This document shows positions 10,783 to 17,350 of a stretch of 36,235 bases of DNA, piece by piece; position 1 is the first letter of the stretch; the number at the start of each line of letters is the position of its first letter. The stretch comes from Fidelibacterota bacterium. Its GTDB lineage: Bacteria; Fidelibacterota; Marinisomatia; SCGC-AAA003-L08; D37C17. Position numbers and translations under genes: made by a program. The stretch covers positions 1 through 36,235 of the forward strand of contig JASLLI010000008.1 in the NCBI GenBank assembly GCA_030747125.1. Direction: 5' to 3'. Below the pieces are notes generated by a model. The model was not told the origin of the DNA. It saw only the letters and a program-made list of their open reading frames with translations, and searched no databases.

Positions 10783-10856
10783 CTGAACTCACCCCCGCCC
10801 CCTTTCTTTCAAAGAGAGGGGTGCCCTGAGCTTGGCGAGGGGCGGAGTGAGTTCAG
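10783..10856. repeat. GC-rich multi-arm inverted repeat (hairpin element)
   Basis: The outer arms are 10783-10801 (CTGAACTCAC then CCCCGCCCC) and 10839-10856 (GGGGCGGAGTGAGTTCAG), complementary over about 18 bp with one bulge. Inside, CCCTTTCTTT and AAAGAGAGGG (about 10799-10820) pair with one mismatch, and GCCC/GGGC can form a second short arm. Base composition is strikingly unlike the AT-rich surroundings. It looks like an interspersed palindromic element, not a terminator, because no T-run follows on either strand. Confidence 0.7.
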
Positions 10857-10914: not shown

Positions 10915-10948
10915 TTCTTTTTCTTAATCGTCATAATGCCTTAAATTA

Positions 10949-10974
10949 GAAACGCTAAATACGGATATCGTTTC
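10949..10974. promoter_or_regulatory. Candidate TetR-family operator upstream of tetR
   Basis: Inverted repeat GAAACG (10949-10954) and CGTTTC (10969-10974) separated by 14 bases, ending 5 bases before the TTG start of the TetR gene. TetR-family proteins often repress their own operon from palindromes at this position. The arms are short, so the assignment is tentative. Confidence 0.35.
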
Positions 10975-10979
10975 CAACG

Positions 10980-11588
10980 TTGAAAGAACATCAAACTAAA
11001 ACAGCTATTTTATCTCAGGGAGAATCCGCTCTGGTGCAGGACGGCGTCCGCAACTTCACTGTAGAAGACATCGCCAAAACCCTCTTCATCAGTAAGAAAA
11101 CCATTTACAAATTTTTCCCTACCAAAGATAACCTTATTGAGTCCATTGTGGACTTCATAATCAGCCATGTGGAAAATCATTTTAAATCCACACTGAAAAA
11201 AGACATTTCCCCCGTTGCAAAATTTCATGAACTCATAAACTATGCCCTTAATCAGTTAGGCAGATTTCAACTGCAGCGCATGGCAGATATGAAAGCCCGC
11301 TACCCCAACATCTGGCTGAAAATTGAAGCCTTCCGCGAACAATGTCAAAAAGATATTATCACTGTATTTTTAGAAGCCAAGTCTCAAGATCTGGTACATG
11401 CAGACCTTGATCTGCAGGCAGCATCTCCCATTCTGCTGAAAATGATCAACGCAATATTTCAACCAGAATTTTTAATTCATAACAACCTCACTCCGCCTCA
11501 GGCAGTGGAAACCTATTATCACATGATATCTTCAGGAATATTTACTGCTAAGGGGCAGAAAGAATTAGATAAATTAAGAAAATCATAA
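10980..11588 (+). CDS. TetR/AcrR-family transcriptional regulator
   Basis: A 202-aa one-component repressor. The N-terminal HTH is typical: VEDIAKTLFISKKTIYKFF at about residues 24-42, followed by the KDNLIESIVD helix. The C-terminal ligand/dimer domain (about 55-202) is helical and not recognisable at family level. The start is TTG at 10980; the HTH lies only 20 residues in and no ATG precedes it, so a non-ATG start is needed. It ends 7 bases before the RND gene and is the first gene of the tetR-RND-LolA-like-barrel run, so it most likely controls that operon in response to the transported lipid or a toxic amphiphile. The ligand is unknown. Confidence 0.88.
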   Translation: MKEHQTKTAILSQGESALVQDGVRNFTVEDIAKTLFISKKTIYKFFPTKDNLIESIVDFIISHVENHFKSTLKKDISPVAKFHELINYALNQLGRFQLQRMADMKARYPNIWLKIEAFREQCQKDIITVFLEAKSQDLVHADLDLQAASPILLKMINAIFQPEFLIHNNLTPPQAVETYYHMISSGIFTAKGQKELDKLRKS

Positions 11589-11595
11589 AATAATC

Positions 11596-13893
11596 TTGAG
11601 TACTAAACTAAAATCATTTGCTCTCCATCAGGCGTTAAACCATTCCCTGAGAACGGTCATTTTGTCGCTTCTTCTCACCTTTATCATCGGATCAGGCGCT
11701 CGATTTATTTTCATTGATGACAATGTAATGAATATGCTTCCTGAGGATGTTGAATCCCGTCGTGTTTGGAACGAAGTCTCCGAAGAGTTTGGTTACTCCG
11801 ATTTTCTTTTTGTGGCATTCGGGCACCCAGGGGAAGATGCATTAACTCCTGAAAACCTTGCCCTCACCTGGGATTTAACCGAAGCGTTTGAAAGAATTGC
11901 CCAGGTGGATGAAGTAATATCAATTGCCACCATGAATAAAATGGAAGGTGACGAAGGGTTTCTGGAAGTAGATGAACTCATGGATTCCAGAAATGTGGAC
12001 AGTTTGGAAACTGGGGAAATTGCCCGATACCTGAAGGATAATAATAATCTCAGTTCCAGAGTATTGGGGAAAAATAAGGACTATATTAACATTATCATCC
12101 GCCCAACCCCCCATTCCTATCCTCCTCCATTGGTGGATGCAGTGCTGGAAATTACAGCGAAATATGAAAAAGATTATGATTTCCATTATGGAGGAGAACC
12201 CTATATTGCAGGTACGATTCCTGAACTCATTCAGACGGAGTCTTCCAAACTTATGCTGGTAGGATTACTCCTCATGACTCTGATTTTATTAGCAAATCTG
12301 AGATCTTTTCCAGCTGTGGGAATGGTACTCTCTGTCATCTTTCTCTCTGGATTTGCCATGCTGGGGGTCATGGGCTGGATATTTCATTTTACAGACTCTC
12401 CTAAGTTTTATTTTACTATGGTAAATACATCCATGCCTATCGTACTGCTCACCATTGCCAATTCAGACGGTGTCCATATTCTTTCTCGATTTTTCAGGGA
12501 AGCACGAAAGCATAAGGATGTTAACAAAGCGGTAACGCTTACCATGAATCAACTCATGCTGCCTGTATTTCTCACATCCATAACCACTTCAGCAGCATTT
12601 CTCACCATGGTGACTTCACCAATCACTGCCATGACGGGGTTCGGTGTCACCGTTGGCGCAGGCATCCTATGGGCGTGGATTTTATCGGCTACTTTCCTCC
12701 CTGCCATCATCGCTTTGAAAAAATGGGATTTCTCTCATGCCTCTTTGTCCAAACCAAGTATCTTGGAAACCCTTATTCATAGGTTTGGCAGAAACATTCT
12801 GAAAAGACCCAAATCTGTGCTGGCAGCAGGACTGACAATTGTAGGTTTTGCTCTTATAGGCATTCCTTATATCAATGTAGAAGTGAATGTGGTAAATATG
12901 TTTAAACCAGGCATGCCAATCAGGGAATCGGCGCATTTTTTAGATAGAGAGATGGCAGGTTCTATGAGTCTGCTGATGAAGATAGAAGGAGACATGAAAG
13001 ATCCTGAACTACTGCATGATGTGGTAAAAATTCAGAACTATCTTGAATCCAAACCCACTGTGAATACAACGGTTTCCATTGCAGATGTGATTGAAGAAAT
13101 GCACAAATCCATTATGGATAATAACCCCCAATACGCCGTAATCCCCGACTCCCGGGATAAGGTGAATAATCTTTTCACCATGTATTCCATGTCAGGTGAC
13201 CCGGATGATTTTGAATCCTTAGTGGATTATGACTATGAAAAGGGCTTGATCACTGCTATGATGCATTCCATTTCGACGAAAGAAACGGTGGAGATTTCAA
13301 ATCAAATTGAACATTTTATACAATCAGAATTGGGTGACCGTCAAATTCAAATTTCCGGCCTCATGATGTTCATCAAAGATTTTGTTGATTTAGTAGTACA
13401 GTCCTCCATCACCAGTATTTTTGGCTCCATTGTAGTCATCTTTTTTATTGTTTGGATTTTTTTCCGATCCTGGCGATTCGGCATTCTGGCAATCGTTCCT
13501 CTGTTTTCTGCTGTCATTTTAAACTTTGGACTCATGGCATGGTTTGGAGTAGATCTGAGCCATTTTACCGCCCTGTTAACTTCCATCATCATTGGAGTGG
13601 GTGTGGATTTTGCCATTCACTATATTGCGGAGTTCCGTCATTACTCTGAAAATGGTCTTCAAGATGATGAGATCAGCAGACAGGTGGTGGATGATGTGGG
13701 ATATCCTATTTTATTAGATGTCTTTTCCAATATGGGCTTTGGAGCCCTTGTGGTGTCTTCCCTTATACCTCTGGTCCACATGGGTGGCCTCATGGTCTTT
13801 GCCATGCTTTCAACTTCACTGGGAACTCTTACCATTTTAGCAGCACTTATGGAAATTTTCAGAGAAAAACTCATTTATCAATACAGGAGCTGA
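11596..13893 (+). CDS. RND/MMPL-superfamily inner-membrane exporter (HAE3-like)
   Basis: A 765-aa proton-driven transporter of the predicted RND exporter group related to MMPL and HpnN proteins. Two similar halves are visible. Each has a single N-terminal membrane segment (about 20-40 and 410-430), a periplasmic loop of about 150-175 residues, and a bundle of five membrane helices. Each half has a family D-x-x-x-H motif in its fourth helix: NSDGVHI in half 1 and GVGVDFAIH in half 2, candidates for the proton relay. At this length it has smaller periplasmic domains than AcrB (1049 aa). The start is TTG at 11596. It is followed after one base by a LolA-like periplasmic protein and then an outer-membrane barrel, and no membrane-fusion protein or TolC is encoded nearby. 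Cargo is probably a lipid or other hydrophobe (inference). Confidence 0.88.
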   Translation: MSTKLKSFALHQALNHSLRTVILSLLLTFIIGSGARFIFIDDNVMNMLPEDVESRRVWNEVSEEFGYSDFLFVAFGHPGEDALTPENLALTWDLTEAFERIAQVDEVISIATMNKMEGDEGFLEVDELMDSRNVDSLETGEIARYLKDNNNLSSRVLGKNKDYINIIIRPTPHSYPPPLVDAVLEITAKYEKDYDFHYGGEPYIAGTIPELIQTESSKLMLVGLLLMTLILLANLRSFPAVGMVLSVIFLSGFAMLGVMGWIFHFTDSPKFYFTMVNTSMPIVLLTIANSDGVHILSRFFREARKHKDVNKAVTLTMNQLMLPVFLTSITTSAAFLTMVTSPITAMTGFGVTVGAGILWAWILSATFLPAIIALKKWDFSHASLSKPSILETLIHRFGRNILKRPKSVLAAGLTIVGFALIGIPYINVEVNVVNMFKPGMPIRESAHFLDREMAGSMSLLMKIEGDMKDPELLHDVVKIQNYLESKPTVNTTVSIADVIEEMHKSIMDNNPQYAVIPDSRDKVNNLFTMYSMSGDPDDFESLVDYDYEKGLITAMMHSISTKETVEISNQIEHFIQSELGDRQIQISGLMMFIKDFVDLVVQSSITSIFGSIVVIFFIVWIFFRSWRFGILAIVPLFSAVILNFGLMAWFGVDLSHFTALLTSIIIGVGVDFAIHYIAEFRHYSENGLQDDEISRQVVDDVGYPILLDVFSNMGFGALVVSSLIPLVHMGGLMVFAMLSTSLGTLTILAALMEIFREKLIYQYRS

Positions 13894-13894
13894 T

Positions 13895-14638
13895 ATGAAA
13901 TTAATATCTGTTATTTATCTACTCACCTTTTGTTTTGCTCTTGACGGAACAGAACTTGCCCGCCTCATGGACATCCGCAAAACACCAAAGGACTCCAAGG
14001 CTGACCTAACCATGGTACTCACCAATAAAAAGGGGAAGCAGCGCACTTCCACCATTCGTTCGTTTTCAAAGGATGGTGGAGAAAAGCAAATTACCTGGTT
14101 TTTAGCCCCTGCTGATGATAAGGGAGTAGGCTTTTTGAAAATTGAACATGATTCTAAAGATGATGAAATGCGTATGTGGCTGCCTGCTTTTAAAAAGGTA
14201 CGCAGAATATCAGCCGGTAAAAAATCTGACAGTTTTATGGGCTCTGATATGAGCTATGAAGATATGGCATCCAGACAGATTGATGAATTTGACTTTACGA
14301 TTACAGGGGAACAAGACATCAACGGAGTTCTATGTAAAATTTTAGAATCCAAACCGAAGGAGAGTGTGCAGTCAGAATACAGCCGGCATCTAAGCTGGGT
14401 GCATCCGGAAAAACATATTACTCTACAGGAACACTCCTTTGACAAGTCGGGAAATCTGTTAAAGGAGAAAAAATATGCCTACACCGTCATCAAGGAGTAT
14501 GATATTCTTCAGGAAATCACTGTAACGAATGTGCTGAAAAATCATTCCACCCGCCTCACTTTTTCAAATATGGATTTGGATACCGGAATCCCTGACAGTC
14601 AATTTCATGAGAAATATTTGAAACGCCTGCCAAAGTAA
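13895..14638 (+). CDS. LolA-like periplasmic outer-membrane lipoprotein-sorting family protein
   Basis: A 247-aa secreted protein of the LolA-like (outer membrane lipoprotein-sorting protein) family. An uncleaved stretch MKLISVIYLLTFCFA forms the signal peptide, with probable cleavage before LDGTE. The mature chain alternates beta-strands as in the half-barrel LolA/LppX fold: LTMVLTNKKGKQRTSTIRSF, KQITWFLAP, then MRMWLPAFKKVRRISAGKK and GSDMSYEDMAS, a signature of this subfamily. It starts one base after the RND stop and ends 6 bases before the barrel gene. The position suggests a shuttle carrying a hydrophobic cargo from the RND pump across the periplasm, as LolA does for lipoproteins. True LolA is found with LolCDE, which is not here, so lipoprotein sorting itself is not implied. 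Confidence 0.83.
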   Translation: MKLISVIYLLTFCFALDGTELARLMDIRKTPKDSKADLTMVLTNKKGKQRTSTIRSFSKDGGEKQITWFLAPADDKGVGFLKIEHDSKDDEMRMWLPAFKKVRRISAGKKSDSFMGSDMSYEDMASRQIDEFDFTITGEQDINGVLCKILESKPKESVQSEYSRHLSWVHPEKHITLQEHSFDKSGNLLKEKKYAYTVIKEYDILQEITVTNVLKNHSTRLTFSNMDLDTGIPDSQFHEKYLKRLPK

Positions 14639-14644
14639 AAGCAG

Positions 14645-15922
14645 ATGTGCAATAAACACCGTCGTTTCAAATTGACTATTGTCCTGTGGTTAGGGATTGC
14701 ATCTGCTCAAATCCATTATAGTGGTTCCATCCATCCCACTTTTATGTATAGGTCTGATGGCTTCCGGCAAATCACGCTTCCTTTTCGATTAGCGGAAGTA
14801 CAATGTAGTTATAGCTATTCTGAATTCGATTTCACTTATGCTGCAGCAATTGAGTCACGGTGGAATAATGTAGAGAATTCTTCCATTGACAACCGTGAAT
14901 TGTATGTAGAATGGTATCCCTACTGGGGTGAAGTCAAGCTGGGAAAGCAAATCATTTCCTGGGGTGTGGCAGATGGAAATAACCCCACGGATAATCTGAA
15001 CCCTTACGATTATTATTTCCTTTTTTCACCGGGAGCAGATAGAAAAATCGGAGTTTGGTCTGCCGCTCTTACCTATTACTGGCATGATTGGGCAGTTCAA
15101 TCAGTTCTTATTCCCGAACATACACCAAATCGTCTTCCCTTTGGAGAAACTGAATTCCCCTTCGCACCCCCGGATAAACCATCTGCCTATTATAATATGT
15201 CAAACCCATTGGAGATTGGTGTCAAATTCAGCGGAATGGCGGGAGAAACAGACCTATCCCTGTATGTATTGAATGGGCATGACAGAACTTTCAGTATGAG
15301 CCATATTGAAAAAACCAACGATGATGATGGAGTTTTCAATTCCCCTCGCAATTTTGGATTTGGCAAAACTACAATGGTAGGATTTGACATGGTGCATTAT
15401 TGGGGTAAGTATGGATTCAGAGGGGAAGCTGCCTGGTTTTCTACCCATAATCCCTATAAAGGAGAGCATTACCTTTGGGAACGGAAAGCAGAATATATTC
15501 AATACGCTTTGGAATTTGAATATCCTGCTCCTTACGACATCCATACCATGACCCAAATTATTGGAACCACAGTTCTCTCAGCAGAAGGATACGATGATGA
15601 GAATTCCGAAAACATCCATGACATCAGTGCTACTTTTCAGCCGGGAATGGGCAGCCCATTCGCACAATTATCTGATATGGCTCTAATGTCCACTGCCAGT
15701 ACCAGTTTACTGGATGACCATCTTGAAGTGGATGTATTTACTTTAATTAATTTGGAAGAAACAGGCTATATGCTGGGAGGAAACCTAATCTATTCAGTTT
15801 TGGAAAATATGGAGGCTGAATTGGGAGTATCTCTGTTTCAAGGAGATGATAATCCTTTAAATCAATTTACTCTTCTGGAAGATTTTTCACACTTCCGCAT
15901 TGGATTAAAATATTCCTTTTAG
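14645..15922 (+). CDS. Outer-membrane beta-barrel protein, DUF1302-like
   Basis: A 425-aa protein with a signal peptide (about residues 1-21, ending ASAQ) and a pattern of amphipathic strands through to a terminal FRIGLKYSF; a C-terminal Phe is typical of barrels recognised by BAM. The segment RELYVEWYPYWGEVKLGKQ followed by ISWGVADGNNPTDNLNP (about residues 79-114) resembles the conserved RE-(A/L)-Y-x-D...LGKQ-x-x-WG-x-(A/S)DG...NP core of the DUF1302 outer-membrane family. It is third in the tetR-RND-LolA-like-barrel operon, completing a path from inner to outer membrane. It could be a channel or a lipid-insertion barrel. An alginate-export-type or generic porin label is the main alternative. 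Confidence 0.72.
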   Translation: MCNKHRRFKLTIVLWLGIASAQIHYSGSIHPTFMYRSDGFRQITLPFRLAEVQCSYSYSEFDFTYAAAIESRWNNVENSSIDNRELYVEWYPYWGEVKLGKQIISWGVADGNNPTDNLNPYDYYFLFSPGADRKIGVWSAALTYYWHDWAVQSVLIPEHTPNRLPFGETEFPFAPPDKPSAYYNMSNPLEIGVKFSGMAGETDLSLYVLNGHDRTFSMSHIEKTNDDDGVFNSPRNFGFGKTTMVGFDMVHYWGKYGFRGEAAWFSTHNPYKGEHYLWERKAEYIQYALEFEYPAPYDIHTMTQIIGTTVLSAEGYDDENSENIHDISATFQPGMGSPFAQLSDMALMSTASTSLLDDHLEVDVFTLINLEETGYMLGGNLIYSVLENMEAELGVSLFQGDDNPLNQFTLLEDFSHFRIGLKYSF

Positions 15923-15988: not shown

Positions 15989-17350
15989 ATGGAAGTACAA
16001 CCAAAAGAAAGCCGCTTAGAAGAATTTATTGAAAATCCGAAGAAATCCATGTGGAAGCTATCGCTGCCTATGATGTTCGGCATGTCGGTACAGGCAATCT
16101 ACATGCTGGTGGACACTGCCTTCATCGGAAAGTGGGTAGGCGGTACCGCCCTGGCAGGTCTGGGATATGTCTTCCCCTACTTTTTCATTTTGATGGGCAT
16201 TACCTTCGGGTTAGGTTCCGGTGCTACCACTGTCATTGCACAATACATTGGCTCTAAAGATAAGCAGAATGCAGATAACGCAGCGGAACATACGGTGCTC
16301 CTGGGTATCCTCATTGGTGTGACCATTATCATTTTTGGTTTCCTCTACGGTAAAAGGATGATTGGGATGCAGGGAGCTGACGAAGAAACGGTACAGGTTG
16401 CCCTGGATTATTTTTACATCATGACTGGTGGTTCCATTTTTATGGTACTATCTGTATTTTTCAGATCTATATTGTCTGGTGAAGGGGATATGATGTTCCC
16501 AATGAAGGTTTTAGGTGTAGGAACGGTGTTGAATATTATACTTGATCCTATTTTTATTTATTATTACCAAATTGCAGGTGCCGCCATGGCTACGGTGATT
16601 AGTCAGGCATTGGTTACGGTGGTATTCATCTATGCCCTCTTTTTCAAGGAACACAGTTATGTCACCTTTAAACTGAAGGACTTTAAATATAATTTTGGAA
16701 TCATTAAAGAAATTTTCCGTCTGGGTATTCCTGCGTCTTTGAGTATGATTATCATGTCTATGGGGATCCTCCTCTTTAACCGGATTCTTGGCAGCTCAGA
16801 TGCTGTGGCAGCCTATCAGACTGCAGGTCGCATTGAACATCTGTTTTTCCTGCCCATCATTTCTATTGCAACTTCACTGGTAACTTTGGTGGGTATGTTT
16901 TATGGAGCAAAAAGAATTGATCTGGTAAAACTCATGGTAAAATATGGACTCACACGCAGTGTTTCCATTTCCTTCAGTTTCAGCATTCTCTTTTATTTCT
17001 TCAGTGGTTCCCTCATGCCCCTTTTTACCAATTCAGATGAAATTTCACGGTTGGCAGTACTCTATTTTAAAATAATGGCATTTGCCTATCCTTTCATAAC
17101 TATAGGTATGACCAGTACCAGAATCATGCAGGGGCTGGGGTATGCATACCCTATGTTTATACTGACTCTCTTTCGGGTAGTAATCATCGCAGCTTCTCTG
17201 GCGTGGTATTTTGTCATGGTGTTAGGAAAACCCGTACATTATGCCTTTGTGGGGACTTTGATTTCCTGTATTCTCACCTCTTTTGTAAGCATTACCTGGT
17301 TGAGGAGTATTATCAGAAAATCCTTTCAACCTGTTCTTGAAACAGGGTAA
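15989..17350 (+). CDS. MATE-family multidrug/metabolite exporter
   Basis: A 453-aa polytopic protein with about twelve membrane helices in two six-helix halves, typical for MATE/DinF/NorM transporters, which use sodium or proton gradients to export cationic drugs or metabolites. Family features include PMMFGMSVQAIYMLVDTAF in the first helix, GLGSGATTVIAQ in the second, and AMATVISQ near the end of the first half. It starts 66 bases after the barrel gene on the same strand, so it may be a distal gene of the RND operon or be transcribed on its own. There is no clear Shine-Dalgarno sequence before ATG 15989. Substrate unknown. Confidence 0.92.
   Translation: MEVQPKESRLEEFIENPKKSMWKLSLPMMFGMSVQAIYMLVDTAFIGKWVGGTALAGLGYVFPYFFILMGITFGLGSGATTVIAQYIGSKDKQNADNAAEHTVLLGILIGVTIIIFGFLYGKRMIGMQGADEETVQVALDYFYIMTGGSIFMVLSVFFRSILSGEGDMMFPMKVLGVGTVLNIILDPIFIYYYQIAGAAMATVISQALVTVVFIYALFFKEHSYVTFKLKDFKYNFGIIKEIFRLGIPASLSMIIMSMGILLFNRILGSSDAVAAYQTAGRIEHLFFLPIISIATSLVTLVGMFYGAKRIDLVKLMVKYGLTRSVSISFSFSILFYFFSGSLMPLFTNSDEISRLAVLYFKIMAFAYPFITIGMTSTRIMQGLGYAYPMFILTLFRVVIIAASLAWYFVMVLGKPVHYAFVGTLISCILTSFVSITWLRSIIRKSFQPVLETG

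Follow-up and report, generated by a model that had tools for sequence, protein, structure and literature searches.

An operon in the window (the whole stretch of 36,235 nucleotides analysed here, which is contig C96 of a 1.7-Mb genome whose relatives are Candidatus Neomarinimicrobiota) belongs to a known but little-recognised export module. On the + strand between positions 10980 and 15922 it encodes a TetR-family regulator, an MMPL-type RND pump, a LolA-like carrier and a DUF1302 barrel, separated by gaps of 7, 1 and 6 bases. The reading we prefer, with a probability of roughly one half, is that of a proton-driven relay across the envelope, controlled by TetR, whose cargo is an acyl-type amphiphile. 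The pump would draw this cargo from the inner membrane and pass it straight to the LolA-like carrier, which would take the place of a membrane-fusion protein, as suggested by the operon structure and by natural pump-carrier fusions. The carrier would then dock on the DUF1302 barrel, from which the cargo would enter or cross the outer membrane. That the genes form one unit and act in this order seems rather probable, while for a cargo that is endogenous and lipid-like the odds appear slightly less than even. The most likely cargo would be a lipid or lipid-like metabolite derived from fatty acids rather than a lipoprotein. Such a module would bring hydrophobic cargo through the Gram-negative envelope with a carrier instead of the tunnel of a membrane-fusion protein, and cultivable strains have it.

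The domain assignments are based on Pfam models, each scoring above its own cut-off. The regulator (10980-11588, + strand; 202 aa, TTG start) matches TetR_N with 35.4 bits (cut-off 24), and the pump (11596-13893, +; 765 aa, TTG start) matches MMPL with 120.5 bits (cut-off 20.5). They are followed by the LolA-like periplasmic carrier (13895-14638, +; 247 aa), with 180.9 bits for PF17131 (cut-off 30), and by the outer-membrane barrel (14645-15922, +; 425 aa), with 29.2 bits for DUF1302 (PF06980; cut-off 23.2). The open reading frames and Pfam matches of the operon include neither a membrane-fusion protein nor an OEP/TolC-type gene, and the list of open reading frames holds no further gene between 10980 and 15922, such as an AmeC-like fourth periplasmic protein. 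The first-pass annotation had described the gene order, the 1- and 6-base gaps, the TetR gene at the head, the three structural families and a pump without a membrane-fusion protein, all of which agree with the coordinates and Pfam matches. Membership in the tripartite AcrAB-TolC type of efflux systems was rejected because the operon has no membrane-fusion protein and no TolC gene.

The pump is matched by the MMPL domain in two stretches above the Pfam cut-off. In NCBIfam its best family is HAE3 (TIGR00921), followed by actII/MMPL and HpnN; on sequence grounds we file it as HAE3-like only, not as HAE3, because the TIGR00921 score of 187 bits is under the curated cut-off of 351.9. The AlphaFold2 model (pLDDT 85.3) shows two porter loops, each about 160 residues long, and 12 transmembrane (TM) helices; its fold matches are MmpL5/MmpL4, HpnN, MmpL3 and NPC1. 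Among 49 pump homologues D671 (TM10, bases 13606-13608) is present in all and D291 (TM4, bases 12466-12468) in 44. The predicted structure thus supports an MmpL/HpnN-like pump with proton-relay aspartates. Judged by their length, the porter loops do not seem long enough to form docking domains of the AcrB type, and a separate carrier would therefore be expected. The MmpL pumps and HpnN, which have the folds closest to that of the window pump, export lipid or siderophore; they differ from it in having no known DUF1302 barrel partner and share only about 13-16% identity with it in structural alignments.

The carrier has a signal peptide without a canonical lipobox. In addition to PF17131 it matches DUF1329 in part (34.2 vs 23.1 bits), and its solved relatives in the PDB are 9tp6, 4z48 and 3bk5. 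The classical LolA model of Pfam does not match it and LolCDE genes are absent from the operon. Membership in the classical Lol system was rejected, as the protein matches PF17131 and DUF1329 instead of LolA, and an RND pump stands in place of LolCDE. In Persicobacter (L158, L163) the carrier gene follows one ABC ATPase-like gene and two permease-like ones, with no RND pump; because ABC genes replace the pump there, the carrier may be able to work with more than one kind of inner-membrane engine. A parallel ABC-LolA-Omp85 export system has been proposed for Borrelia (PMC13078400).

The barrel model (AlphaFold2, pLDDT 87.7) has about 18 strands and the protein ends in F; all 53 barrel homologues examined have an aromatic C-terminal residue. 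Among solved folds the model comes nearest to the alginate exporter AlgE and then to general porins; the TM-scores are modest (about 0.54). The model therefore supports a genuine outer-membrane-type barrel. A conserved motif, GKQIISWGVADGNNPTDNLNPYDY (14927-15010, +; codons 95-122), contains positions that are invariant or nearly invariant in the homologue alignment, and the barrels of trios in other phyla have a common motif resembling G-[KR]-Q-x3-WG-x-AD-x3-PTD-x3-P-x-DY. It could be argued that the LolA-like protein carries lipoproteins or that the system delivers the barrel itself. Databases do name the carrier family "outer membrane lipoprotein-sorting protein", and delivery of a porin was proposed by the authors who studied the Thalassolituus genes described below (PMC6304351). 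Both versions are nevertheless highly improbable: besides the Pfam profile of the carrier and the missing LolCDE, the pump is MmpL-like, and the barrels, with their ordinary aromatic C-terminus, should be inserted by BAM.

Conservation of the trio beyond close relatives had been set beforehand as a point on which the proposal would stand or fall, and it was found, in several gene orders and with pump-carrier fusions. Breadth outside the phylum was assessed by searching a plasmid collection with the window carrier and from published papers. The trio, permuted or with pump and carrier fused, occurs in Bacteroidota, Fusobacteriota and Proteobacteria. In Prevotella nigrescens (L151) the three genes stand in tandem as in the window (RND-LolA-DUF1302, gaps of 11 and 1), the last being annotated as DUF1302. 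The order is LolA-barrel-RND in Ilyobacter, LolA-RND-putative barrel in Thalassospira, and both RND-LolA-putative barrel and barrel-LolA-RND in Photobacterium. The trio was also found in Halioglobus, and in Sulfitobacter beside a type I polyketide synthase. The barrels of Photobacterium GJ3, Halioglobus and Thalassospira were called only from their position, length and C-terminus. Acinetobacter baumannii encodes a 1216-aa protein made up of an N-terminal polyketide-cyclase/START-like domain, the pump and a LolA-like domain, followed by a DUF1302 barrel. Permuted order together with fusion is stronger evidence of a working unit than synteny alone.

Literature searches yielded few or no papers on exactly this combination of pump, carrier and barrel, and the same parts can be recognised in several described systems, so that the idea is not new in kind. 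In the AmeABCD cassette of Castellaniella defragrans, a DUF1302 outer-membrane protein, a DUF1329 protein of the LolA superfamily and an HAE3 RND pump are encoded together. AmeB, however, is of the longer DUF1329 type (451 aa, against 247 aa for the PF17131 carrier of the window), the gene orders differ, and the cassette has a fourth gene, AmeC (COG4447, PSII-assembly-factor-like), that is absent from the window operon. The latter probably works like an Ame cassette yet is not filed as one, because no AmeC-like gene is present between 10980 and 15922. PG1178-PG1181 of Porphyromonas gingivalis and the related Prevotella operons likewise comprise a TetR regulator, an MMPL pump, a LolA-like "lipoprotein-sorting" protein and a downstream protein. 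They differ in including two ABC ATP-binding genes and in being strongly iron/hemin regulated; in the aligned parts, their identity to the window proteins is 22% for the pump, 29% for the carrier and 28% for the barrel. The Acinetobacter locus (L159), equated with A1S_0116-A1S_0117 by gene order and protein sizes, shares the RND pump, LolA-like domain and DUF1302 barrel, with pump and carrier fused, and lies within the polycistronic operon of the NRPS lipopeptide Ac-505 (PMC5376624); both genes rise in biofilm (PMC3758355). In Thalassolituus oleivorans MMPL and LolA-like domains are fused in one protein and a porin-like gene lies downstream (TOL_3187-TOL_3188), a likeness drawn by description. 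Also by description, PP_0765, PP_0766, PP_2018 and PP_2019 of Pseudomonas putida, for which a transport system was proposed from co-fitness and AlphaFold (PMC10866462), include a DUF1302 barrel, a DUF1329 carrier and an RND-type pump, although unlike the window operon they form two separate loci and include an extra periplasmic protein. The new route implied by the first-pass annotation was thus an overstatement, since AmeABCD, PG1178-PG1181, A1S_0116-0117 and TOL_3187-3188 have the same parts. What the recurrence of the module does offer is to join Gram-negative HAE3/MMPL pumps, PF17131 "lipoprotein-sorting" proteins and DUF1302 barrels, which are mostly unassigned families, and to link separate observations on monoterpene tolerance, the Ac-505 operon, the iron-starvation operons of oral Bacteroidota and growth on Tween and alkanes.

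Some of these observations would suit transport in the opposite direction, in which a hydrophobic nutrient (lipid, alkane or hydrophobic iron carrier) enters through the barrel and is then brought to the inner membrane by the carrier and RND protein in an NPC1-like manner. NPC1 is indeed among the fold matches of the pump. The P. putida homologues are needed for the use of Tween 20 (PMC10866462), TOL_3187/TOL_3188 are induced on the n-C28 alkane (PMC6304351), and PG1175-PG1181 and the Prevotella operons are among the strongest responders to iron or hemin starvation (PMC10434189, PMC10470040). Import is nevertheless very unlikely, given that bacterial RND pumps of known direction export, that Ac-505 was found in spent medium (PMC5376624), that AlgE is an exporter and that efflux better fits local autoregulation of the TetR type.

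Within Neomarinimicrobiota, 80 loci were fetched with the carrier as the query; the scan of named genomes returned almost only this phylum, and most of the data are metagenome-assembled genomes. The pump gene adjoins the carrier gene in 65 of the 67 testable loci and a barrel gene lies within 4 kb downstream in 60 of 70. All three genes are present in 43 of 60 related genomes, 10 are mixed (most of them incomplete assemblies) and seven have none, five of these seven being from one reduced-genome genus, so that relatedness qualifies the count. Several genomes have a second, diverged TetR-RND-LolA-barrel set, and contig C13 of the window genome (L191, 4247-8976) carries a diverged second set of LolA-like, putative barrel and RND genes in another order. 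In five sampled congeners the pump and carrier are kept with no TetR or barrel gene beside them as far as the contigs reach, which suggests that a cis-encoded barrel is sometimes dispensable; three of the five, as well as several genomes of the family that have no cis barrel, encode a longer barrel elsewhere. The operon had been called self-contained, which is an overstatement: in the genus and family it often lacks the barrel, and its conserved surroundings include a MATE gene. In some loci (L036, L041, L043, L077-L080, L083, L084, L088, L093, L096, L101, L131) the carrier and barrel genes are parted by a small cupin gene, which in some cases is accompanied by a ZIP metal transporter; a link to metals would agree with the regulation by iron in Bacteroidota.

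The neighbouring genes bear on the cargo. Five loci (L121, L124, L130, L134, L137) have a FabH gene between those for the RND pump and the LolA-like carrier; where complete, it overlaps the RND gene or is separated from it by a few bases. OleA-type hydrocarbon synthesis was considered for this enzyme and rejected, the enzyme being FabH. A fadB-like gene is found nearby in 18 loci. A separate cassette (L175-L179, L183, L194-L199 and, on contig C72 of the window genome, L190) encodes a long barrel together with an arylsulfotransferase (ASST)-like protein, Sulfotransfer_3, a signal-peptide-bearing START-like protein and often KASIII; Pfam gave no match for the START-like protein, whose putative identity is a reading of its sequence. 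In one genome (G056) the cassette immediately adjoins the pump operon and in another (G043) it is close by; in five more (G027, G009, G019, G010, G012) no more than about 13 kb separate it from pump and/or carrier genes. In the window genome it is unlinked to the operon, contig C72 carrying the sulfotransferase and START genes and ending right after the latter, so that a long barrel may lie beyond the contig end, and it is absent from most other sampled families. The FabH, fadB-like and cassette links favour a fatty-acid-derived cargo, although chance or shared ancestry may explain why the FabH and fad genes lie beside the trio. A more specific and quite doubtful extension is that the operon is the export arm of a Neomarinimicrobiota envelope (sulfo)lipid pathway. 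Here a KASIII/FabH-type enzyme would start the acyl chain and the Sulfotransfer_3 protein would modify it; the secreted START-like and LolA-like proteins would act as carriers, the RND pump would export and a short or long DUF1302 barrel would deliver the product to the surface. Lipid export in mycobacteria pairs a sulfotransferase with MmpL, and the (sulfo)lipid pathway, if true, would be its parallel in a Gram-negative envelope with an outer-membrane barrel of its own.

The regulator and the MATE gene bear on the cargo as well. The MATE-family efflux transporter (15989-17350, +; MatE, 179.8 bits) is probably co-transcribed with the operon, because the gap behind the barrel gene is 66 bases, no terminator-like site was found between the two genes on the + strand, and the position is the same in relatives, about ten of which (L033, L035, L038, L049, L056, L064-L067) have MATE after the barrel gene or, where the barrel is missing, after the LolA-like gene. 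In P. gingivalis, iron starvation induces a MATE gene, PG0827, more strongly than any other gene. Upstream of the regulator an operator had been proposed at 10949-10974, and the inverted repeat is there (10948-10975; AGAAACG-N14-CGTTTCC), with a chance expectation of 0.04 in the window. With one mismatch at most, GGAAACG-N14-CGTTTCC precedes 30 of the 33 TetR orthologues that have enough upstream sequence, whereas 4000 random 170-base stretches drawn from these loci gave 18 hits, which will include some of the operators. A TetR orthologue heads the operon in 35 of the 80 loci, and the perfect operator matches examined in 60 genomes fall at promoters of this TetR family. A FadR-like fatty-acid regulon, brought up by a weak NCBIfam similarity of the TetR protein, was not supported, since an operator apparently confined to these promoters means that the regulon does not reach the fad genes. 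In genus g5 (G009, G015) an orthologous TetR with the same operator instead heads an OEP-HlyD-AcrB, i.e., TolC-MFP-AcrB, operon (L227, 2171-8592; L228, 1-6415); from the sequences, the regulator-operator pair appears to have moved between two kinds of exporter. The confinement of the operator and its use with another exporter point to a local regulator whose ligand is plausibly an exported compound. TetR would repress its own operon from 10948-10975 until the cargo or a related compound accumulates, and the conserved operator opens a direct way to the inducing ligand.

The MATE gene and the TetR swap speak for detoxification, in which TetR would sense a toxic hydrophobe from outside the cell (solvent, terpene or antibiotic-like amphiphile) and the same relay would remove it together with MATE. 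Deletion of AmeABCD, which lowers monoterpene tolerance and raises Nile Red accumulation (PMC6394551), agrees with this, as do the conservation of the MATE neighbour and the regulator and operator shared with the TolC-MFP-AcrB operon. We consider detoxification rather unlikely, as the pump fold is closest to those of lipid and siderophore exporters, FabH and START/KASIII genes are associated with the system, and the trio occurs in lipopeptide and polyketide gene clusters. Of the lipid export from pump to carrier to barrel that was suggested in the first-pass annotation, the unit and the protein families are supported; a lipid cargo is plausible, but detoxification fits the TetR and MATE evidence equally well. 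Further upstream, in the stretch that separates the glutamate dehydrogenase gene from the TetR promoter, positions 10785-10854 contain another inverted repeat, GAACTCAC...GTGAGTTC, which with its G+C-rich arms looks like a dispersed repeat.
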